Positions 11,239-24,718 of a stretch of DNA of 24,718 nt are shown here, piece by piece. Position 1 is the first letter of the stretch, and each line of letters starts with the position of its first letter. Below the pieces are notes generated by a model. It was not told the origin of the DNA, made no database searches, and saw only the letters and a program-made list of their open reading frames with translations. Source of the DNA: a virus; IMG/VR virus record IMGVR_UViG_3300043410_000391, positions 1 to 24,718 of that record, one strand, 5' to 3'. A program made the translations under genes and the position numbers.

Positions 11239-14200
11239 TTACGCTCTTAGTCCAGGAAGTTGTACAAATCCTTGCATATTTGCGGAAACTCCGCTTCTTA
11301 CGGTACTATCGTTATACATGGTAAACTTCTGATATCTTGGTTGATATGTTGGTGGATAGTACACCCCGATATGCACCCAAGGATTATTAGTTCTTCTGGC
11401 AGGAGCAAATTCTAAAATAATCTGGTCGTGCGGAATATTGAGTCTTGCAATCTTTTCCGCAGCCTGAATAGTTCTAGCTTGGCTATAACCACAACCAATA
11501 AACTGCAAGTCTGCGGCTAATCCAGACAAGTGGGCAGAGGTTGATGATCCGCCTCTAGGAACATCATTTCTATAACAGCTACTTACCACAAGTTGTGGTC
11601 CAAATTCTCTTCTAATTGGATCCAAACACAGTACAGCAAGTTCTCTTAGATTGCGAATAATGTCAAATGGACCATAAGTTTTTCCATTAGGATATCTTAT
11701 TGTAGTAAGTCTCTTGCCTTTAGTAAGATCCTTCAATTTGAAATATTTCGAAATTTGGAAATTACCGTAAGAGTTTGGATCTCCCTGCGTTGGTAATGGA
11801 GGCAAAGGATGGCCGTCCATGTCAACGTTTGTGGGTCTTACTCCAGGTCTACTATTAAACGGACCAGCTTCTGCGCCTGGTGTATAGTTTTGATCCGATT
11901 CTGGATAACTACTATCTCCTGATGGATTTGAATTGTTCATACAATTTGGATCATCCATTACGGCAGAACCGGACTCTGAAATATCGCCGCCATCGTTTGC
12001 CATACCAGGGGCTGCGCCATCGTGTGCGTTTGATCCGCCGCTGCCACCTGAAGATTGACCGCCGCCTCTGCCAGAAGATTGTCCTCCGGCAATACCTTCT
12101 GAGACTGGCGCTGCGGCTATTGACACTGGACTATCAACTGGTACCGTAACTGCCTGTTCCGCAACAACAGCAAGTTCTGGCTCGCTTGCTGGATCCGCAG
12201 AGTTTGCAGATGCCGCGGCCGTAGCTGAAGCTGGAGAAACTGGACTTGCACTACCTTTAATGTTTGTTGTGTCGTCAGTTGAATTATGAGTACCTTTAAG
12301 GTTTGTTGTTGTCGCATTAAGTGTAGATACGTCAATAGTCGGCGCACTAAATTTAGACGATGCGACTTCTGGTGCCTTAAGATTAATGTTACCCGCACCC
12401 TCAACATTTACCGCTGCACCAGACTTGACGTTTGTGGCTGCCGCTGAATTGACGTTTACCGCATTTGCAGACTTAACGTTGATTGAATCCGTAGCTTCCG
12501 CATTAATAACATTCGCAGACTTGATGTTTGTAGCAGCCAGAGATTCTGTATTGACAGATCCGCCAGCCTTGACATTTGTATTACCTAGAGACTCAATATT
12601 AGTATGAGTTCCAGATTTAGAGTTGATAGTTTTTGCTGCCTTAAGTAATGCGTCTCCGTCTGTAGAAGTATTAATGTCTCCCACAGATGTTAGATATGTT
12701 TTACCAGCAACCTTGGTATGATGATCGCCCTTTGTGGTTACCTTATATCCAGAAGACGCTATTTGATTGATAGTTCCATCAACATTTGTATTGAAGTTTG
12801 ATGGAGTATGCATCTCAATATTACCCTTATTTTCTAAGGAAAACACACCCTCATTTCGCATAAAGATTCCATTACCTGCGGCAATCGACAATGCGCCACC
12901 AACATTCAAGTTAAAGTCATTATGGACATCCATGCTAACTTTACCATTCATGGTAAGATTTGCATTACCCATGACAATAATATTGCACTCGCCACCAACA
13001 TGAACTGATGCTTTACCTTCAATTGAAATGTATCCATCGTTATCGACAATCGTATATCCATCGCCGACAATACGAGTTACTTTTGTTCCATCTGGTCCAA
13101 TCTCATCGAACGTTCCTGATCGATGTGCAAAATGTACACGTTCTGCTCCGGGAGTATCATCCCATTCCATAACGTGGCCTGATTCTGTACCCATAACTTT
13201 ATTATATGGATATTCTGCTGCATATGGTGAATCTGGTTGTGACCAAGATCCACCATGTCTACCCGCTTTTGGAACATCTCTCCTCTTTGTCGCATTCTTT
13301 GCTGCTGGAGATGATCCTTTACCAAGAGTATCATGAACGTCACTTACTGGACTTTTCTGAATATGCTGAGAATTTACACCAACAGCCAGAGGGTTAGTAT
13401 CTGGTTTATTATTTAAAGATGGTTTTGGATATTGACCACCGGGGTCTTTAAAACCAGCAGTGGGCGATTGTCTATCAGGACGCAAAGTAGATTCATTTGA
13501 TGGAAGATTGTCTGCGTTCTCTGGAGCACTATTTGTATTAATTGGCGCCGCATCATTTGCTGGGTGGCAAACCACAGAAGAATCGACTCTATTAAGAGTT
13601 TCAATTTCGCCAACAATTGGAGGAGAAACTCGCTCGACTGTCTTATCCACAGTGACGAATCCATGTTGATCTTCAGTAATTGTTGTTGTGATTTTAGAAC
13701 CATCACCATACTTTTCTACGACTGTAGTTACAGTTGATCCATCAGGATTTGCAACACTAGGTTCCTGAGTTGCAACTGGTGTATTATTACTAAAGGTCTT
13801 CTTTACTTTTTCTAGATTTGTTGTCCAGTCACCAGGAATAGCTTGTCTGGCGGAATCTAAATCTTTAGAGATTTGGGTGTCTTCACCTGGAGTTTCAGAA
13901 TCAATTTTAAATTGGTTTAAAGTTTTATACGCATTGTTATTAACTTCAGCTAAAACTAAATCTAATCTTTTATCAGTATTTAATTCCGATATGTATGCTC
14001 GAATTTCATCAACTATAGCCGATACAGAGGTGTTATTACTTAATGAAAGATTGTCTTGCTGTGAAGTTAGAACGAATGTATATACTTTATTTCTAAGTCC
14101 ATATACAATATTATACGAACCGATGGTAACTTCTTTGTTATATACTGCCTGTTTATTTGGATTATTAGCAAGCCTTTCTTGTTTTATAGCTCCATCAATC

Positions 14201-17064
14201 GCAGCAATAAACAGTTTGTAAGGTAACGTATTGGTTTCTGTCTTTTCAATATTTGCAACAACAGAAATATTAATTCCCTTCACAGAAAGATATGCTACAC
14301 CACCAGATGCTTGCCACAGATAAGATACCTTAACTGAACCATAAGTCTTTTCAATAGGGTTTGGATCTGTTGGTGGAGTTGATGGTTCGCCACCAGTAAT
14401 CGCTGCAATTTTTGAACCAGGTAAAACTGGAACAGCTTTAGCAGAATTTGTTCCCGTTGCTGGAAGTTCTGGAATATTTGCTGGCGTCACTGGCAAATAA
14501 GAAGAAATTACATTTCCAGTTTCGGACGCCGCTGTAGTTCCTCCTGGCAATGCAGTTGCTAAGGTTGCAGACACATTGTTTGCGGCATCTGCAAGAGTGG
14601 CATCAACTGCGCCAAGTGAATTTGCTAATGCACCCTGCGCGTTTCCGGCTATTGACATACCAGAAGTGGAGATGCTGGCTGCTGATCCAGAAACGCTTCT
14701 AATTGCCGAGGCACCTAAAGCCTCAGCAGCGGCAACAGCATCTTTAGCTGAAGTTGTTAATGCGGTAAGGTCTGAACCAAGATTTTTTGTAGCCCCACCT
14801 ACAGTAGAAGATACCATCGAAGAAGCCGCAGAAGTTGCAGAAGACTTCAATGAATCTAAGCTGGCTGTTCCAGGTTTACTTAATAGTTGTGCTTTGTCTG
14901 TGCCAACAGAAAGAAGTGCAGAAGATTTTGCTTGGGTAAATGCATCAAGCATTCCTTTTTCCGCACCTGTGCTTTCAATTAATTTCATATTCAAAGCTGG
15001 CACAGCAGAACCAACATTACCTAAAGACGATGATGTTTCAGCAAGTTTGTCTGCAATTTTCTTAGGATCTGATTCTCCTTTTATGGCAGCCGCAAGTAAT
15101 GCAGTAGAACCTGGAGGACATAAACCTCTGCGATTTAACTCGTTGACAACAGCGGTATTAGGATCACAAGCTAATCCCATACCACTCTTCAAAGATTCGC
15201 CAATAAAACTTATAGATTCAGGACTGACTTCCCCAGAGGCTTCAATTGCACCAACCGCTGTTCCACATGCCTCAGTTGTCATACTCTCAACAGAATTGGC
15301 AAGATCAACAATCTTTTTAGAAATTGCACTTGGACTTTTTAGTTTTGCAGTCTCATCTGCAATTGATCCCAAATTAGGTGAGGCAAGTGCGGATGTTACA
15401 CTGGTGCCCACTGAACTTAATGAGTCTAATGAATAGCCAGTAACTTCTTTGGTTGCTGCATCTAAACTTTTTACTGGAGATGTAGTTCCACTTAATGCGG
15501 AACTAATGCTAGATACTTTGTTTAGGGCAGCCTTTGCTGGAGCAGTTAATGATGCTGAAGCGGCAAGTTGTTTCTTTGCAGAGTCGATTTGTGAAATTTT
15601 CGATTTAATAGATTCTGCGGCAATACCAAGTCCAGCATTAAGAATGCTTCCGGTCGATCTTGGAATAATACCAGAACTAACAAGTCCAGAAATTACACCA
15701 GGCAAATTTTTATTTGAGATAATATTTGCTAAAGTAGATGATGTATCTAGAAATAATTTTGGACTTACTTGAGTGGTTGGTTTTCTTTCTCCAGGACGAA
15801 TAATTACATTCTGCGAGGATATCTCTCTAGGAATTTCCGCAACAGAATTCCATCCTAAATCATACCAATACTTGGTATTGATGCCATCGGCGTTTGTTTT
15901 GATTGTACCCGATGCATATGAAATAGCGGCATCAGAGTTCTCAATTAGTCCAAGAGATAGTAATCCCGCCAAAGTCTTTTTATCAGTGGAAGTGTTTACT
16001 GTCTTTGCATACAATAATTTCTTATAAACATTTTCCATGATATTAAATGCTAACTCATCTTGTAACTTTTCGTCAGTTACAATTTCTGATGCATTTCTAA
16101 AAACGCAAGGATATACTGGAGGAATAGGATTATATAAAAAGAAATACTGAATATTATTTGCAGACTCTCTTTTGAAAGGAGCTACATCATAATCCGCACC
16201 AGATCTCTCTGAGATTACCTCTGCATATGTTTTGTACCTATCAGCAGGTCCAGATTTTGCTGGATTGCTATTCATTGCAAGTTCCGCCCAATGAAGCACA
16301 TCTTTAGATATAAACCCAATATCACCTAATTGCGATATTGTAAGTCTATATGCACCGTACTCACCGCGGCTGTGAATTTTCTTAAATAAACTTCTGCTGC
16401 CAGATACTGGATATTTTTCTGCTACTGCACCTCTAATAGAATTTAAAATTTTAGCAACATCATCTTTAGTTAGTTTTCCAATAACTGTTTTTTGTTTTGG
16501 AAATGATGTGGGTGAAGTAGAATAATTTCTCTGGCTCTGCGCCAAACTTGTTGTTGATAGTACGGCATCAAATGCTTGACCCAAAATTCTTGATGTTCTT
16601 GTGTCCAATCCAGCAATCTGCATTGCGCCAGCAGCCATAGAACCAAAATCATTTTTTGATTTTGCTTGTAAAATTTGTGCCGACAATCGCAAGAGTTTTG
16701 CTTCATCATTAGTAATTACATTTAAGGATTTCAAATTTGCAATAATCGATGACACGGATCCAGGACGATTGATATTCGTAGAAGCCATACCAATAGCTAC
16801 GGCTTTTCTTAACTTGTTTCCATCGGATCTACTTAAAATTCCGGATGTTGTTAATCCAGTAACAACATCACCAATTCTAGGTGTCTGTCCTTTTTCTAAA
16901 GAATCTGCAATTCTAAGACCACTAGTTAAAGCTCTAGCTTGATTAGTATCGATAACTCTTGCTTGCTGTGCAATCCTAACAATAGCCGTTAAATCGGGGG
17001 CTTTACCCGTTTTAATAGTTCTTGTTACAGATGTGATTAATTGTCTAGACTGTAATAGTGACAT
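11239..17064 (-). CDS. Giant central spike protein: beta-helix with octad repeats and C-terminal M15 peptidase
   Basis: About 1,941 residues, far longer than T4 gp5 (575). Rough order: helical ~40-residue repeats (20-140); a lysozyme-like region (about 215-415); a fourth helical repeat (454-486); an Ala/Ser-rich region (490-890); an unknown beta-rich domain (905-1060); a linker; a gp5/gpV-type spike opening at 1285-1350 ('ESGHVMEWDDTPGAERVHF', 'HRSGTF') and beta-helix to about 1600, with eight-residue repeats at 1481-1568; a Gly/Ser linker (1655-1700); and an M15-type peptidase (1770-1905) with 'SAHLSGLAADL' (zinc ligands His, Asp), then E and 'WVHI'. It replaces the C-terminal half of gp5: the OB fold and glycosidase are in the preceding gene. 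ATG at 17064 is preferred (GGAG seven nt upstream on the mRNA); a GTG at 17067 overlaps the gp5-like stop. It probably pierces the outer membrane and cuts peptide crosslinks. Confidence 0.85.
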   Translation of the reverse strand: MSLLQSRQLITSVTRTIKTGKAPDLTAIVRIAQQARVIDTNQARALTSGLRIADSLEKGQTPRIGDVVTGLTTSGILSRSDGNKLRKAVAIGMASTNINRPGSVSSIIANLKSLNVITNDEAKLLRLSAQILQAKSKNDFGSMAAGAMQIAGLDTRTSRILGQAFDAVLSTTSLAQSQRNYSTSPTSFPKQKTVIGKLTKDDVAKILNSIRGAVAEKYPVSGSRSLFKKIHSRGEYGAYRLTISQLGDIGFISKDVLHWAELAMNSNPAKSGPADRYKTYAEVISERSGADYDVAPFKRESANNIQYFFLYNPIPPVYPCVFRNASEIVTDEKLQDELAFNIMENVYKKLLYAKTVNTSTDKKTLAGLLSLGLIENSDAAISYASGTIKTNADGINTKYWYDLGWNSVAEIPREISSQNVIIRPGERKPTTQVSPKLFLDTSSTLANIISNKNLPGVISGLVSSGIIPRSTGSILNAGLGIAAESIKSKISQIDSAKKQLAASASLTAPAKAALNKVSSISSALSGTTSPVKSLDAATKEVTGYSLDSLSSVGTSVTSALASPNLGSIADETAKLKSPSAISKKIVDLANSVESMTTEACGTAVGAIEASGEVSPESISFIGESLKSGMGLACDPNTAVVNELNRRGLCPPGSTALLAAAIKGESDPKKIADKLAETSSSLGNVGSAVPALNMKLIESTGAEKGMLDAFTQAKSSALLSVGTDKAQLLSKPGTASLDSLKSSATSAASSMVSSTVGGATKNLGSDLTALTTSAKDAVAAAEALGASAIRSVSGSAASISTSGMSIAGNAQGALANSLGAVDATLADAANNVSATLATALPGGTTAASETGNVISSYLPVTPANIPELPATGTNSAKAVPVLPGSKIAAITGGEPSTPPTDPNPIEKTYGSVKVSYLWQASGGVAYLSVKGINISVVANIEKTETNTLPYKLFIAAIDGAIKQERLANNPNKQAVYNKEVTIGSYNIVYGLRNKVYTFVLTSQQDNLSLSNNTSVSAIVDEIRAYISELNTDKRLDLVLAEVNNNAYKTLNQFKIDSETPGEDTQISKDLDSARQAIPGDWTTNLEKVKKTFSNNTPVATQEPSVANPDGSTVTTVVEKYGDGSKITTTITEDQHGFVTVDKTVERVSPPIVGEIETLNRVDSSVVCHPANDAAPINTNSAPENADNLPSNESTLRPDRQSPTAGFKDPGGQYPKPSLNNKPDTNPLAVGVNSQHIQKSPVSDVHDTLGKGSSPAAKNATKRRDVPKAGRHGGSWSQPDSPYAAEYPYNKVMGTESGHVMEWDDTPGAERVHFAHRSGTFDEIGPDGTKVTRIVGDGYTIVDNDGYISIEGKASVHVGGECNIIVMGNANLTMNGKVSMDVHNDFNLNVGGALSIAAGNGIFMRNEGVFSLENKGNIEMHTPSNFNTNVDGTINQIASSGYKVTTKGDHHTKVAGKTYLTSVGDINTSTDGDALLKAAKTINSKSGTHTNIESLGNTNVKAGGSVNTESLAATNIKSANVINAEATDSINVKSANAVNVNSAAATNVKSGAAVNVEGAGNINLKAPEVASSKFSAPTIDVSTLNATTTNLKGTHNSTDDTTNIKGSASPVSPASATAAASANSADPASEPELAVVAEQAVTVPVDSPVSIAAAPVSEGIAGGQSSGRGGGQSSGGSGGSNAHDGAAPGMANDGGDISESGSAVMDDPNCMNNSNPSGDSSYPESDQNYTPGAEAGPFNSRPGVRPTNVDMDGHPLPPLPTQGDPNSYGNFQISKYFKLKDLTKGKRLTTIRYPNGKTYGPFDIIRNLRELAVLCLDPIRREFGPQLVVSSCYRNDVPRGGSSTSAHLSGLAADLQFIGCGYSQARTIQAAEKIARLNIPHDQIILEFAPARRTNNPWVHIGVYYPPTYQPRYQKFTMYNDSTVRSGVSANMQGFVQLPGLRA
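11353..11760 (-). other. M15-type D,D/L,D-peptidase domain of the spike protein
   Basis: Residues about 1770-1905 of the spike protein. The motif S-x-H-x-x-G-x-A-x-D appears as 'SAHLSGLAADL' (His about 1846, Asp about 1853), followed by a Glu near 1886 and 'WVHIGVY' (His about 1899). These are the zinc-binding and catalytic residues expected of M15A-type peptidases, so the domain looks active. Its likely target is the peptide part of host peptidoglycan. Confidence 0.8.
12364..12627 (-). repeat. Eleven octapeptide beta-helix repeats in the spike
   Basis: Residues about 1481-1568 split cleanly into eleven eight-residue units, such as TNVKAGGS, VNTESLAA, TNIKSANV, INVKSANA, VNVNSAAA, TNVKSGAA and VNVEGAGN. 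The consensus is [TVI]-N-[VIT]-[KE]-[SA]-x-x-x. T4 gp5 has an octad-based intertwined beta-helix (VxGxxxxx), so this is the same type of structure with an N-x-K/E variant. At DNA level it shows as degenerate 24-nt periodicity. Confidence 0.75.
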
Positions 17065-17066
17065 CA

Positions 17067-18005
17067 CTATGCTCCATATTTCTGCTTATATCTCTGAAAT
17101 GCTGCATTTCGCTCATCAAGTGCGTTTGTGCCACCATTAACAGCCCTAGTTACTGCGAGAATATCACCCCATTTGTTTCCTCTATCTAGGTATGATTTTT
17201 CTCTTTGGAAATACCACAAACATGTTTGCGCGGCAATTTCCTTCGTCTCAACTAATTCTGGTTGAGATACCAAATCTTTACCTATAAATCTTCCTGCTCT
17301 ATTATAATTGTTTTTCCAAGTTAATTGGACATAACCCCTACCTTTATATTTTGCGCCATCACCGATTTGTGTATTTCCGTTCTGCGCTGCATCTCTTCTA
17401 CGATCTGGATCGTATCTTCTAAAATAGTCTGGAGGTCCCATTTCTCTTAGTGTTCTAAATCTGTCAGATTCTACATAACATTGAGCCATAATTGCGGCTT
17501 TACAAACTGGGCCCCAATTTCTAAATGCTCTAGGACCATTTTGGTCTAAGAATTGTTCCAAGTACGACTCTAATCCTGCGGCATTACCAGACGGAACAAC
17601 ATAGCTTCCTCCACTACTCTGATAATCTCCGCCTGGGTTAGTGGTATCTCCAGAAGTAGGATTACAGTTATTCTCACTTAGTCCACCAGGAACAGCGCCG
17701 ACTGTCCCAAAAATCATGGGATGTTGAGCGTCTGAGCCGTCAGCAAAAAATCCAATTACCCAAGTTCCAGTAACTACACCATTTGGTGAAGTACCGACAC
17801 CGCCAACTCCCGCACTGTTGATAGGCATAATGGGCATAGCCCAAGGCAAATCTCCAGTCGGAAGCATCTCGGTATCATCAACGTGATACCCCATAATTCT
17901 AACTCTACACCTGCCCATACGAAGTGGATCATCTCTGTCTTCCACAACACCAAACCACCAGTAAAACTGGGCAACATTATCAGTTGTTCTATTATCCATA
18001 GCCAT
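17067..18005 (-). CDS. 5: gp5-like baseplate hub lysozyme: OB fold plus GH19 glycosidase
   Basis: A 312-residue protein. Residues 12-105 are the gp5/VgrG-type OB fold ('FGVVEDRDDPLRMGRCRVRI', 'LPWAMPIMP', 'GTWVIGFFADGSDAQHPMIFG'). In T4 this domain binds the gp27 torus. Residues 106-142 are a Gly/Ser/Asn-rich linker. Residues 143-312 are a GH19 chitinase-like muramidase: 'AIMAQCYVESDRFRTLREMG' with the likely acid Glu179 and a second Glu188, then 'GDGAKYKGRGYVQLTWKNNY' at about 216-235. T4 gp5 carries a GH24-type lysozyme instead. There is no beta-helix: the protein ends after the enzyme, and the spike is the next gene. It lies 3 nt after the gp27-like gene, and its stop overlaps the alternative GTG of the spike. 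Expected role: local peptidoglycan cleavage during injection. Confidence 0.9.
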   Translation of the reverse strand: MAMDNRTTDNVAQFYWWFGVVEDRDDPLRMGRCRVRIMGYHVDDTEMLPTGDLPWAMPIMPINSAGVGGVGTSPNGVVTGTWVIGFFADGSDAQHPMIFGTVGAVPGGLSENNCNPTSGDTTNPGGDYQSSGGSYVVPSGNAAGLESYLEQFLDQNGPRAFRNWGPVCKAAIMAQCYVESDRFRTLREMGPPDYFRRYDPDRRRDAAQNGNTQIGDGAKYKGRGYVQLTWKNNYNRAGRFIGKDLVSQPELVETKEIAAQTCLWYFQREKSYLDRGNKWGDILAVTRAVNGGTNALDERNAAFQRYKQKYGA

Positions 18006-21192: not shown

Positions 21193-21200
21193 TATTTATA
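21193..21200 (-). promoter_or_regulatory. Late promoter TATAAATA for the leftward baseplate operon
   Basis: A perfect T4 late -10 octamer on the minus strand. The expected start of transcription is near 21187, giving a leader of about 32 nt to the gp48-like ATG. The octamer overlaps the first base of the gp4 start codon on the other strand. Confidence 0.7.
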
Positions 21201-21655
21201 TGACATATACAACAGGTACCCTAAGGGGATTCTATAAAGTAGAGAATCCTAAGAAATATCTAGGAAATATTGAAAATGTGGTCTTTAGATCCAGTTGGGA
21301 ACTAAAGTTTATGAAGTGGTGTGACAGTAATCCAAACATTCTAGAGTGGGGATCTGAAGAACTTGCAATACCGTATATCTCGCCAGTTGATAAAAGGGTG
21401 CATAGATATTTCGTAGATTTTTATATGAAGGTTAAAGATAATTCTGGTACGATTAGTAAGTATCTAGTTGAAATAAAACCATCTAAGTTTCTAGTTCCTC
21501 CAAAACAACCAAAAAGACAGACCAAACAATTCATCTCAGAGGTCGCAACCTATGCGACAAACCAGGCAAAGTGGAAATTTGCAGAGGAGTTTTGTAAGGA
21601 TCAGGGCTGGAAATTTATTGTGCTTACAGAAAAAGAACTGGGAATTGTTGCATAA
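21200..21655 (+). CDS. 4: Head completion protein gp4 (nuclease-like fold)
   Basis: A 151-residue protein, the same size as T4 gp4 (150). gp4 (also gp50) acts after DNA packaging to make heads competent for tail joining. The pattern is TnsA/PD-(D/E)XK-like: 'FRSSWELKFMKW' with Glu34, 'HRYFVDFYMKV' with Asp73, and 'YLVEIKPSK' with Glu91 and Lys93. The Asp-Glu-x-Lys set is intact, so a nuclease-type active site is preserved. A basic stretch (about 98-109) and 'YATNQAKWKFAEEFCKDQGW' complete the family pattern. It is first in the rightward operon. No clear Shine-Dalgarno precedes the ATG, and no better in-frame start is visible. Confidence 0.88.
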   Translation: MTYTTGTLRGFYKVENPKKYLGNIENVVFRSSWELKFMKWCDSNPNILEWGSEELAIPYISPVDKRVHRYFVDFYMKVKDNSGTISKYLVEIKPSKFLVPPKQPKRQTKQFISEVATYATNQAKWKFAEEFCKDQGWKFIVLTEKELGIVA

Positions 21656-21679: not shown

Positions 21680-22252
21680 ATGGCCAATACTGTTTTTTCA
21701 CAATTAAGAACTAATGCGGGAGATAAAGACAGGTCTCTCCAATGGTACATGCGTAATGTAAGGGCAGTTGTTGGCGCAAAACTAAAGCCAGCAGAAACCC
21801 TTAAATCAGACATTGGAAAGCTGGTTACAAATATCGATGTGGGATCAATGTATCTTTATTACTATGATCCAAAAACAAAAGATTCTTTACCTTTTTATGA
21901 TACTTTTCCATTAGTGTTGCCCTTTTCGCCAGCTCCAGGTGGATTTTACGGCATGAATCTACACTATTTACCATATATGCTGAGGGCTAAGGTACTAGGC
22001 GAACTATTAAATTATACAGATAAAAACTTAACCGCAACAAGCAAAATCAAGATGTCTTATAATTTTCTTATGGGATTGTCTGTGGCAAATGAAATTAAAC
22101 CTTGCATCAAGCGATACCTAACGTCTCATGTAAAATCCAGGTTTATGGAAATTAACCCCACAGATTGGAAAGCTACTATATTTTTACCAGTAGAATCGTT
22201 TGTTGGAGCAACCAAAGAACAAGTATTCAGACACTCTAGAGGCATGATCTAA
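21680..22252 (+). CDS. Conserved phage protein of unknown function (after gp4)
   Basis: A 190-residue soluble protein without signal peptide, membrane segment or recognised catalytic motif. The most distinctive part is 'YLYYYDPKTKDSLPFYDTFP' followed by 'LVLPF' and 'GFYGMNLHYLPYMLRAKVL' (about residues 58-107), aromatic and proline-rich with a helical follow-up. The C-terminus has 'DWKATIFLPVESFVGATKEQVFRHSR'. I have the impression that this sequence type recurs in T4-like marine phages but cannot assign a function. In T4, gene 2 (DNA end protector) adjoins gene 4, so gp2-like is one positional guess; the length (190 against 274) does not help. The ATG is preceded by GAGGA. Its stop overlaps the next start (TAATG), so it is coupled to the tail-tube-fold gene. 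Confidence 0.8.
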   Translation: MANTVFSQLRTNAGDKDRSLQWYMRNVRAVVGAKLKPAETLKSDIGKLVTNIDVGSMYLYYYDPKTKDSLPFYDTFPLVLPFSPAPGGFYGMNLHYLPYMLRAKVLGELLNYTDKNLTATSKIKMSYNFLMGLSVANEIKPCIKRYLTSHVKSRFMEINPTDWKATIFLPVESFVGATKEQVFRHSRGMI

Positions 22253-22809
22253 TGTCCACTCCAGCATTTAATACAGACAATTTTAGATCCGAAATGGCAA
22301 CTAAAGATTTTGCCAGATCTCATAGATATGAGGTTCAGTTTTTTGCGCCTAGAATTGTGCAGACCGGAACAGAAGTCTTTAGACAATTCTCGTTATTTAC
22401 CGAAGATGCGTTGATTCCAGGAACACTCTTAGGAACAAAACCAATTCGACTAAACAACATGAATTATCAGAGAGCAACAGCCATTGATTTTAACGGCGAC
22501 TCTATTAGTTTTGGATTTGTTGTTGATTCCACCTGGTTGGTAAAAAATGTTTTTACAGATTGGATGGAAAAAATCGTAAATCCAATTGATAGAGAAGTTG
22601 CTTTTCCGGAAGACTACTATTCAGAAATCTTAATACATGCTCTGGATCAGAGTGATAATATTTTAGCGACTTGGAAACTATATGATGCATTTCCTAGATC
22701 AGTTGCACCCGTGCAAGTATCTTATGGAAATACTCAGATTGTGAGACTACCCGTGACTTTCACGTTTAGAAAGTGGACATTAGAATTTACAGCAAATGAT
22801 CATGACTAG
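22252..22809 (+). CDS. Tail-tube-fold protein (gp19/gp54-like)
   Basis: A 185-residue protein with the outline of the contractile-tail tube fold: 'DFARSHRYEVQFF' at about residues 19-31, a 'LIPGTLLG' turn (about 59-66), 'ISFGFVVDS' strand, 'VFTDWMEKI' helix (about 99-107), 'YSEILIHALDQ' strand, 'ATWKLYDAFPRSV' and a final 'VTFTFRKW'. T4 gp19 (163 residues) has the same succession, including the D-W helix and the terminal beta strand ending in W. Whether it is the main tube protein, a gp54-type initiator, or an extra tube-like subunit cannot be read here. Its place between the coupled upstream gene and gp26 suggests a role at the hub/tube junction. The start codon overlaps the preceding stop. 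Confidence 0.65.
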   Translation: MSTPAFNTDNFRSEMATKDFARSHRYEVQFFAPRIVQTGTEVFRQFSLFTEDALIPGTLLGTKPIRLNNMNYQRATAIDFNGDSISFGFVVDSTWLVKNVFTDWMEKIVNPIDREVAFPEDYYSEILIHALDQSDNILATWKLYDAFPRSVAPVQVSYGNTQIVRLPVTFTFRKWTLEFTANDHD

Positions 22810-22822
22810 AGGATAATATAAC

Positions 22823-23512
22823 ATGGCTTTACCTACATTAAATACCCCAACCTTTAAAGTTCCTGTATATTCACAGAACAAAAAGGAATACGATTTTAGA
22901 CCATTCTTAGTACGAGAAGAAAAAATTCTTCTAATGGCACAAGAGTCTGGTAATCCTAACGAGATGATTGAATCGATGCAGAATGCTATTACGTCATGCT
23001 CGGATGGCAAGGTAGACGGACATAAGTTGCCGTTTTTTGATTTGCAGAACATCTTCATTCAATTGAGAATCAATTCAATTGGTGCAGTAACAGATTTTGA
23101 GTTGATTTGTGGCGAATGCTCTAATCACACGCCAATAAAGTTGGATCTAAAAGAATTACAGTTAAAATTTGCGGAAGATCATAGCAATAAAGTTGCACTA
23201 ACTCCAGAAGTTGGAGTTATTATGAATTATCCAACAGCAAAAATTTTAACAGATACTACCACGCCAGCATTTGATATTGTTGTGGATTGTGTGGACAAAA
23301 TCTATAGCGGCGATGAAGTGTATGATGCTAAGGAAGAGGGTAGAGAAGAAGTTGTTAAATTTATTGAAAGTTTAACCAAAGAACAATTTGATATGATTAT
23401 TAAGTTCTTCGAAACTACGCCTAGAATTGAAAAAGTAGTAGAATATACTTGTGGAAAATGTAATACAGATAACGTAGTTTTAATTGACGGTATTGAAAAT
23501 TTTTTCGAATAG
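22823..23512 (+). CDS. 26: Baseplate hub assembly protein gp26 (tail assembly chaperone type)
   Basis: A 229-residue protein of the T4 gp26 family (T4 gp26 is 208). The N-terminus 'YDFRPFLVREEKILLMAQES' (about 23-42) and 'FFDLQNIFIQLRINSIG' (about 71-87) are the family hallmarks. Two CxxC knuckles, 'CGEC' at 96-99 and 'CGKC' at 210-213, suggest a zinc ribbon. gp26 is needed for hub assembly but is not a major virion part. GAGGA lies upstream of the ATG. The last codons read through a TTTTTTC heptamer before the TAG at 23510. From there a -1 shift would extend the protein by 61 residues into the next ORF, giving about 289 residues. It is followed by the tape-measure-like gene, as lambda G/T is followed by H. 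Confidence 0.9.
   Translation: MALPTLNTPTFKVPVYSQNKKEYDFRPFLVREEKILLMAQESGNPNEMIESMQNAITSCSDGKVDGHKLPFFDLQNIFIQLRINSIGAVTDFELICGECSNHTPIKLDLKELQLKFAEDHSNKVALTPEVGVIMNYPTAKILTDTTTPAFDIVVDCVDKIYSGDEVYDAKEEGREEVVKFIESLTKEQFDMIIKFFETTPRIEKVVEYTCGKCNTDNVVLIDGIENFFE
23500..23506 (+). promoter_or_regulatory. Programmed -1 frameshift slippery heptamer TTTTTTC
   Basis: In the gp26 frame this reads T TTT TTC (X XXY YYZ), a classical -1 slippery site, two codons before the TAG. After a -1 slip the next codons (CGA ATA GCC CTT TCT CAT GAT AAC TTG ATG) are open and continue into the small ORF that ends at 23691. Confidence 0.75.
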
Positions 23513-23620
23513 CCCTTTCTCATGATAACTTGATGAATTATTATAAGACCAACTTTGTTCTAATGCAAGAACACAAATATAGTTTGACAGAACTTGAAAA
23601 TATGATGCCATGGGAAAGGG
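23513..23620 (+). promoter_or_regulatory. Putative frameshift-stimulating RNA stem
   Basis: CCCTTTCTCATG (23513-23524) pairs with CATGGGAAAGGG (23609-23620) in 12 continuous base pairs, one of them G-U. The stem begins six nt after the slippery heptamer. The 84-nt loop contains a nested six-bp hairpin (TGTTCT 23556-23561 with AGAACA 23568-23573). Confidence 0.6.
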
Positions 23621-23691
23621 AAGTTTATGTGGGATTGCTTATGCAACACTTACACAAAAAAGCAGAAGATGCTAAAAAGTTAAATAGGTAA
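23533..23691 (+). CDS. Small -1-frame ORF: C-terminal extension of gp26 (gp51/gpT-like)
   Basis: Fifty-two codons from the ATG, ending in a TAA six nt before the tape-measure-like ATG. The encoded helices ('NYYKTNFVLMQEHKYSLTE', 'MMPWEREVYVGLLMQHL', then a Lys-rich end) resemble the second-frame domains of phage tail chaperones, with a WER(E)xY element. No Shine-Dalgarno precedes the ATG. The frame is open upstream to the gp26 slippery site, adding RIALSHDNL before the first Met. The best reading is that it is translated mainly as a -1 frameshift extension of gp26 (22823-23506 joined to 23506-23691). It occupies the place of T4 gene 51, between 26 and the tape measure, but is far smaller than T4 gp51 (249 residues as I recall it), so I do not assign that symbol. 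Confidence 0.72.
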   Translation: MNYYKTNFVLMQEHKYSLTELENMMPWEREVYVGLLMQHLHKKAEDAKKLNR

Positions 23692-23696
23692 TAAAA

Positions 23697-24718
23697 ATGG
23701 CAGATGAACAAGTAGCCAAGAGTAATCTGGAAAAAGCAGCACAAAAGGCAAATCCTTTTGGAAAATCTGTTGCTCCAGAACAAAGACAGGAACAAATCAA
23801 GCGCGTAGAACATGCGACTGATATTAGGTCCATTGGTCTAACTGGCAATAAGGCACAAATTTCTGTCGCAAAAGATATGACGGCTGCACTGAAGGATACT
23901 GGTGCGGAATTTATTAAGGATTTAACTGAAGAAAATCAGAAACTTATTAAAGATATGGTTACCCAAATTGGTGGCCTATCTTCAAAATCAGCAAAGCAAC
24001 AAGAAAAGTTTCTAGATAAAATTCTAGAAATGTCTGAAAAACTTATCGAAGAAGGTAAGAAGTCGGGTAATGAGAAATTACAAAAATTAGGCGAAAAGAC
24101 AAATAAGTCCGCTGACCAAGAGAGAGCGCGACTAAAAGGAATGAATCTTCGCGGATCAGATGATAATAAAACAAACCGCGCGGCTAGAGATTTGTTTGAC
24201 GTTGATATGGAATCAAAGCTCAAGACAAATCCAAAAGATAACACAAAAGAATTATATAATACAGAAAAGTGGCAAGAAAGAAAATTAAAAGAACGCGGTA
24301 TCGAAGCCCAAGGAATTGGCTGGAAAAAGAAAGATGCCGAGGGTAAGTTTAGAAATCTTACCAAAGATCAGTTGCGCGAAGAAGTTAAAGATGTAAACAA
24401 TAATACGATTGAAGGTAAAGTTAGGGGCGTAGCTAAGGTTGGATTTCAATCAACCAAGAATGTTCTAAAGGCTGCTGGTGGTGGATTTGTTCGTGGTCTT
24501 GCAGAACCTTTTGGATTTAAAGGAATAACCAATAGTTTAGATCAGAATAAACTTACAGATGAACAAAAACGAGACATCGATGCCGCTGAGAAGGATAATC
24601 CCGACTTACCTCAAGGAAAAATAAAACAAAGCGCGCCAGAAGATACTGGTGTAATTAGTAGCTTTGGTGAACAGGCTATTTCTCAGTTAAAAACTCTGTT
24701 GGAAGATTTAACCAAAAA
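23697..24718 (+). CDS. Tape measure/hub-like protein, gp29 candidate (3' end missing)
   Basis: Open from the ATG at 23697 to the right edge, 340 codons plus two bases. The visible part is highly charged and mainly helical, with Lys/Glu/Gln-rich amphipathic stretches at about residues 60-140 ('AALKDTGAEFIKDLTEENQK', 'KQQEKFLDKILEMSEKLIEE') and a Gly-rich patch near 262-278 ('AAGGGFVRGLAEPFGF'). No enzyme motif is seen. Following the gp26/chaperone pair, the expected gene is the tape measure protein (gp29 in T4, gpH in lambda), which sets tail length and is bound by the chaperones. The helical composition fits. AGG precedes the ATG at short spacing. The call rests on order and composition, since the conserved C-terminal part is outside the window. 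Confidence 0.65.
   Translation, partial: MADEQVAKSNLEKAAQKANPFGKSVAPEQRQEQIKRVEHATDIRSIGLTGNKAQISVAKDMTAALKDTGAEFIKDLTEENQKLIKDMVTQIGGLSSKSAKQQEKFLDKILEMSEKLIEEGKKSGNEKLQKLGEKTNKSADQERARLKGMNLRGSDDNKTNRAARDLFDVDMESKLKTNPKDNTKELYNTEKWQERKLKERGIEAQGIGWKKKDAEGKFRNLTKDQLREEVKDVNNNTIEGKVRGVAKVGFQSTKNVLKAAGGGFVRGLAEPFGFKGITNSLDQNKLTDEQKRDIDAAEKDNPDLPQGKIKQSAPEDTGVISSFGEQAISQLKTLLEDLTK

Follow-up and report, generated by a model that had tools for sequence, protein, structure and literature searches.

A gp26-like gene of a marine T4-like phage almost certainly yields a short and a long tail chaperone by -1 slippage near its stop codon

Results

Gene content of the locus

The window, by which we mean the whole analysed stretch of 24,718 nucleotides (positions 1 to 24,718 of IMG/VR virus record IMGVR_UViG_3300043410_000391), carries on its plus strand genes for a gp4-like head closure protein/nuclease fold at 21200..21655 (phrog_218 E=8.6e-62; PF08722), a gp2-like DNA end protector at 21680..22252 (phrog_429 E=4.9e-49) and a tail-tube-type protein at 22252..22809 (phrog_45 E=3.9e-37). 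The last of these stands upstream of a gp26-like gene at 22823..23512, which encodes 229 aa, is preceded by the Shine-Dalgarno (SD)-like sequence GAGGA at 22809..22813 (anti-SD duplex -5.8 kcal/mol) and probably specifies a short tail assembly chaperone (TAC-N). A segment in the -1 frame, 61 codons plus TAA at 23506..23691, is annotated as 'gp51' and would supply the long chaperone (TAC-NC) with its C-terminal domain. The following gene at 23697..24718 is cut by the window end. The initial annotation had taken it for a tape measure gene; this agrees with synteny, the syntenic gene of HTVC008M being annotated as 'putative tail tape measure', and finds no counterpart in the profile searches, where neither Pfam nor phrog returned a match. 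The gp26-like gene is flanked 5' by a phrog_45 tube-type gene and 3', by synteny alone, by a probable tape measure gene.

The minus strand holds a T4-type baseplate cluster, made up of the tube cap gp48, the wedge proteins gp53, gp25 and gp6, and relatives of the gp5-like hub/lysozyme kind. At 11239-18005 of this strand the hub/lysozyme functions are divided between a protein of 1942 aa, which joins phrog_430 to an endolysin-type C-terminus, and one of 312 aa, in which an endolysin domain follows a gp5-like N-terminus.

The slip site and the predicted fusion

The gp26-like reading frame ends in GAA AAT TTT TTC GAA TAG, with the TAG at 23510-23512. The heptamer T TTT TTC at 23500-23506, two codons before this stop, has its first base at codon position 3 and thus follows the X XXY YYZ pattern in the -1 register. 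From C23506 the -1 frame is open through 61 codons up to a TAA at 23689-23691, which gives a predicted fusion of 228 + 61 = 289 aa with the junction ...IENFF|RIALSHDNL.... The initial annotation had placed the heptamer and the -1 stop at these same bases and had estimated the fusion at about 289 residues; all of this is exact. A second in-register slippery heptamer, A AAT TTT at 23497..23503, overlaps the first, and a slip on it would produce the identical fusion peptide.

Among the 6705 in-register positions of all window genes, T TTT TTN occurs once, near the stop of the gp26-like gene, and a first-order Markov model gives a chance of about 1% for 61 open -1 codons. Together with the conservation described below (144 of 144 pairs), this places the arrangement beyond chance. 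Sequencing error and coincidence were considered as its source and are ruled out by its conservation in relatives.

Protein families and structural models

The 0-frame protein belongs to PF12322 (T4_baseplate; E=6.7e-52, cut-off passed) and to phrog_150 (E=1.1e-55). The -1 segment, for which the Pfam search gave no meaningful match, is assigned at E=1.8e-25 to phrog_634 (gp51, 'baseplate hub assembly catalyst') and additionally matches the C-terminal 46 positions of phrog_150. PF12322 is matched by T4 gp26 as well as by T4 gp51, and phrog_634, of the two, by gp51 alone; on these profile matches the two T4 proteins are related, gp26 being the short form and gp51 the long one.

An AlphaFold model of the gp26-like protein reached a pLDDT of 94.6. 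Plain Foldseek against the PDB gave no significant match for this model, and searching PDB sequences with a gp26 profile turned up none of relevance; chaperones surfaced only on realignment, where the best of 617 realigned Foldseek candidates was the HK97 tail assembly chaperone gp13 (Z 6.8), then YqbN (Z 6.3), over about residues 1-91. YqbN, the second chain matched after HK97, is treated as a tail assembly chaperone in PMC9603447. As Z is below 8, we take the fold match as support for a chaperone, not as proof. The -1 domain was modelled as small and helical (pLDDT 86). Together with a location just ahead of the probable tape measure gene, the models make a role of the lambda G/GT type the best reading for the gp26-like pair. 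For the 'hub' label of the initial annotation we substitute that of a tail assembly chaperone pair (TAC-N/TAC-NC), which fits better.

Conservation of the heptamer in relatives

The -1 domain was matched in 614 phage records. Among the matches listed for Kyanoviridae, tblastn alignments of gp26 and of the -1 segment as a rule overlap by a single base, as in a -1 shift. Loci on viral contigs come from two scans that relied on alignments of just the C-terminal domain and from a gp26 search, which contributed two more; the set is not selected for the heptamer, because nearly all loci were retrieved by the C-terminal domain alone. When used as a single-sequence query of the viral contigs, the gp26 of the window found the same virus only.

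Automatic parsing yielded 160 gp26/-1-segment pairs, 144 of them distinct, and all 144 display the -1 relation together with an in-register T TTT TTN. Alignment of gp26 3' ends from related phages, the check proposed in the initial annotation, thus finds that neither the heptamer nor the open -1 frame has been lost. The second codon of the heptamer is TTC in 113 pairs, TTT in 22 and TTA (Leu) in nine, all of which are slippery. The heptamer is present in 106/106 clusters formed at a 70% identity cut over the last 60 gp26 residues, and also in three loci outside the automatic parsing. It usually lies one codon before the stop (in the window TTC is followed by GAA and TAG). In Mosig and in one further relative (L063) the 0-frame stop comes eight codons past the FF, not one, which makes the overlap longer.

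Codon usage at the site was followed in a subset of 86 sequences. The residue ahead of FF is S, N, D, H or A, yet its codon invariably has T in third position, and the first Phe codon is TTT without exception, while elsewhere in the genes of the subset T-ending codons make up 37-77% and TTT 74%. The log10 probabilities of an invariant T-ending codon and of an invariant TTT are about -15 and -11, assuming independence, though the sequences are related.

Cultured phages with the heptamer and the -1 overlap include S-PM2, S-CAM4, HTVC008M and Mosig among Kyanoviridae, and KVP40, nt-1, Aeh1 and EniLVp02 among Straboviridae; both features also occur in Pootjesviridae and in unclassified Stenotrophomonas (DLP_6) and Desulfovibrio phages, and Rhizobium phages carry the variant T TTT TTG. 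These gp26/gp51 genes of Kyanoviridae, Straboviridae and Pootjesviridae are the same genes as in the window, with the same type of heptamer and overlap; the window is a further member of the group. They differ from it by sequence divergence only, and their records either draw a pair of genes or lack the downstream one.

Synechococcus phage S-SCSM1 is an exception: the heptamer is kept, the -1 frame closes at once and the C-terminal domain is read in +1, downstream of what comparison with S-B05 suggests is an insertion of 11 nt. Either the sequence is in error or the domain has switched to an ATG of its own.

Translation of the -1 segment

Public annotations often show the small reading frame as a separate 'baseplate hub assembly catalyst' gene, so it could be argued that a gp51-like protein is made by reinitiation after the gp26 stop, from TTG 23530 or ATG 23533, the first candidate starts in the -1 frame of the window. 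This ATG does exist, and one is also found in the nearest relatives. Neither codon, however, shows SD complementarity (duplex +0.6 kcal/mol, against -5.8 for the gp26-like gene and -3.7 for the downstream gene), in line with the initial annotation, which saw no ribosome site here. That annotation had also seen a conserved-looking sequence that seemed to begin before the ATG, and indeed the nine codons ahead of it are conserved as protein across relatives. In most of the 86 relatives the first 17 codons of the -1 frame contain no ATG or GTG, so that none comes before codon 18-19, midway through the domain, and no stop codon separates the slip site from the domain in any of the 86. At nearly all early -1 codons of these relatives, variability peaks at the third position, which argues that the stretch before any start is translated. 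The records of S-CAM4, ACG-2014h and Aeh1 do not annotate the small gene, and a separate gene would leave the invariant heptamer unexplained. With no strong independent start found, we consider reinitiation highly improbable.

Elements that could stimulate slippage

An SD-like element upstream of the slip site is a feature of known bacterial -1 sites. Such sequences, of the type GAG GG, are enriched ahead of the heptamer in relatives: with a spacing of most often 10 nt, one is present in 38/86, against 14% of control windows, and a Glu before Gly upstream of the site is encoded by GAG in 21/35 cases versus 23% elsewhere (p about 4e-6, ignoring relatedness). In the window itself the upstream SD-like stimulator is absent and there is no strong hairpin 3' of the heptamer (z -1.07). 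Across 86 loci a downstream stimulatory structure was weak and unconvincing, with a mean z of -0.80 after the heptamer, -0.45 before it and -0.13 in the control.

A change of frame could in principle arise from transcriptional slippage on the T run, which usually needs a run of about nine, but the chance of this is close to negligible, given that the window and most relatives have six T only and that the codon register seen, with T TTT TTC/A/T directly ahead of the stop, is the one predicted for ribosomal slippage. Transcriptional slippage could contribute in HTVC008M, Melnitz-3 and two further relatives (L081 and L088), where an uninterrupted T8 runs directly into the TAA or TAG stop.

Discussion

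Proposed mechanism

A frameshifted tail assembly chaperone made in two lengths is very probably the right reading of this locus as a whole. Most ribosomes would read the gp26-like gene to the TAG at 23510-23512 and release the 229-aa short form. A presumed minority would slip back by one base at T TTT TTC, with the Phe tRNAs in the P-site and A-site re-pairing on TTT TTT; these ribosomes would bypass the stop and append the 61-aa helical C-terminal domain to give the 289-aa long form. If the pair behaves like lambda gpG/gpGT, the tape measure protein specified by the next gene would be coated with many copies of the short form and few of the long one. Tail tube protein would be recruited through the C-terminal domain, and both forms would depart before the tail is completed.

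Relation to known systems

The arrangement resembles lambda G/G-T in having a probable short chaperone, a slippery heptamer near its 3' end, a -1 extension and a position directly upstream of a (probable) tape measure gene. It differs in that the family is PF12322, the heptamer T TTT TTC is not that of lambda and the surroundings are a T4-type contractile-tail cluster. The conserved heptamer, the absent start, the domain families, the chaperone-like model and the gene-number pattern described below argue together for a chaperone frameshift of the lambda G/GT type, and the G/GT-H analogy drawn in the initial annotation was right in substance. The comparative conditions under which that annotation would have been refuted came out in favour of the frameshift: relatives keep the heptamer and the open -1 frame, and a strong start of the small reading frame is absent.

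A 2016 review (PMC5009743) describes the lambda-type scheme in most long-tailed phages as conserved 'except T4'. In T4, gp26 corresponds to the short form, and gp51 combines the short-form domain with the C-terminal domain seen in the window; these are two separate genes without the heptamer, whereas the window has one gene and a frameshift. The number of PF12322 genes follows the same division. Heptamer-bearing complete genomes have one, and the window record, a fragment, likewise contains a single one, unlike the two-gene arrangement of T4; T4, phiAS4, IT22, avDM2 and Morttis have two, one copy of which is an in-frame long form. The gp26 of T4 and IT22 keeps FF, coded TTC TTT, and lacks the heptamer. 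This pattern agrees with the statement in PMC10885494, citing Vladimirov, Gautam and Davidson 2022 (doi 10.1016/j.virol.2021.11.003), that in some T4-like phages one short and one long gene replace the frameshift.

As cited in PMC10885494 and PMC12846349, Vladimirov et al. identified the TAC genes of T4-like phages as gp26/gp51, and PMC12846349 credits them with poly-T slip signals in the TAC-N genes of T4-like phages. The initial annotation was aware of no described gp26 frameshift in T4-like phages; on the word of PMC12846349, this must give way to the publication of 2022. In the literature searched, which covers Vladimirov et al. 2022 as represented in the citing papers, we found no description of a gp26 frameshift in cyanophages specifically. 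For Vandenendeviridae/Andersonviridae, PMC12846349 likewise reports conservation of a poly-T site for -1 slippage (GTTTTT motif) where TAC-N ends; these are other phage families, likened to the window by slip motif. Frameshifts of this kind are already established in tailed phages, some T4-like ones included, and that of the window is a clear further case.

Alternative routes to a short and a long form

In Ackermannviridae (barely, phiMAM1, Coodle) and related Vibrio phages the -1 C-terminal domain is conserved at the same place; in Salmonella phage barely the junction region of the domain lies at 2200-2410 of the examined locus, and the junction reads GAA ATT TTC ATT TAA. An X XXY YYZ heptamer is absent at these junctions, which share the element T TTC/T TTT before the stop. 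Those checked (barely, K476 and D510) have a single PF12322 gene. The stop codon runs into an ATG (TAATG) in Coodle and the three Vibrio phages, and no early ATG is present in barely or phiMAM1. It is possible, if somewhat unlikely, that one chaperone family obtains its short and long forms by interchangeable routes, namely a heptamer frameshift (the window, Kyanoviridae, KVP40, Aeh1 and Pootjesviridae), a T4-type duplication with in-frame fusion, and a heptamer-free -1 extension in Ackermannviridae, perhaps through slippage of one tRNA on T TTY. If true, it is the last of these routes that would be undescribed.

Implications

The reading proposed here would correct a widespread annotation error, in that gp26 and the small 'gp51' of cyanophages and marine T4-like phages would be one frameshifted gene, for which public records mostly give a wrong gp51 start or overlook gp51. 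The heptamer may serve as a reliable annotation rule for the cyanophages and the marine T4-like group. In the marine T4-like loci sampled, the tail-chaperone frameshift would then be the rule, while T4 itself uses two genes.
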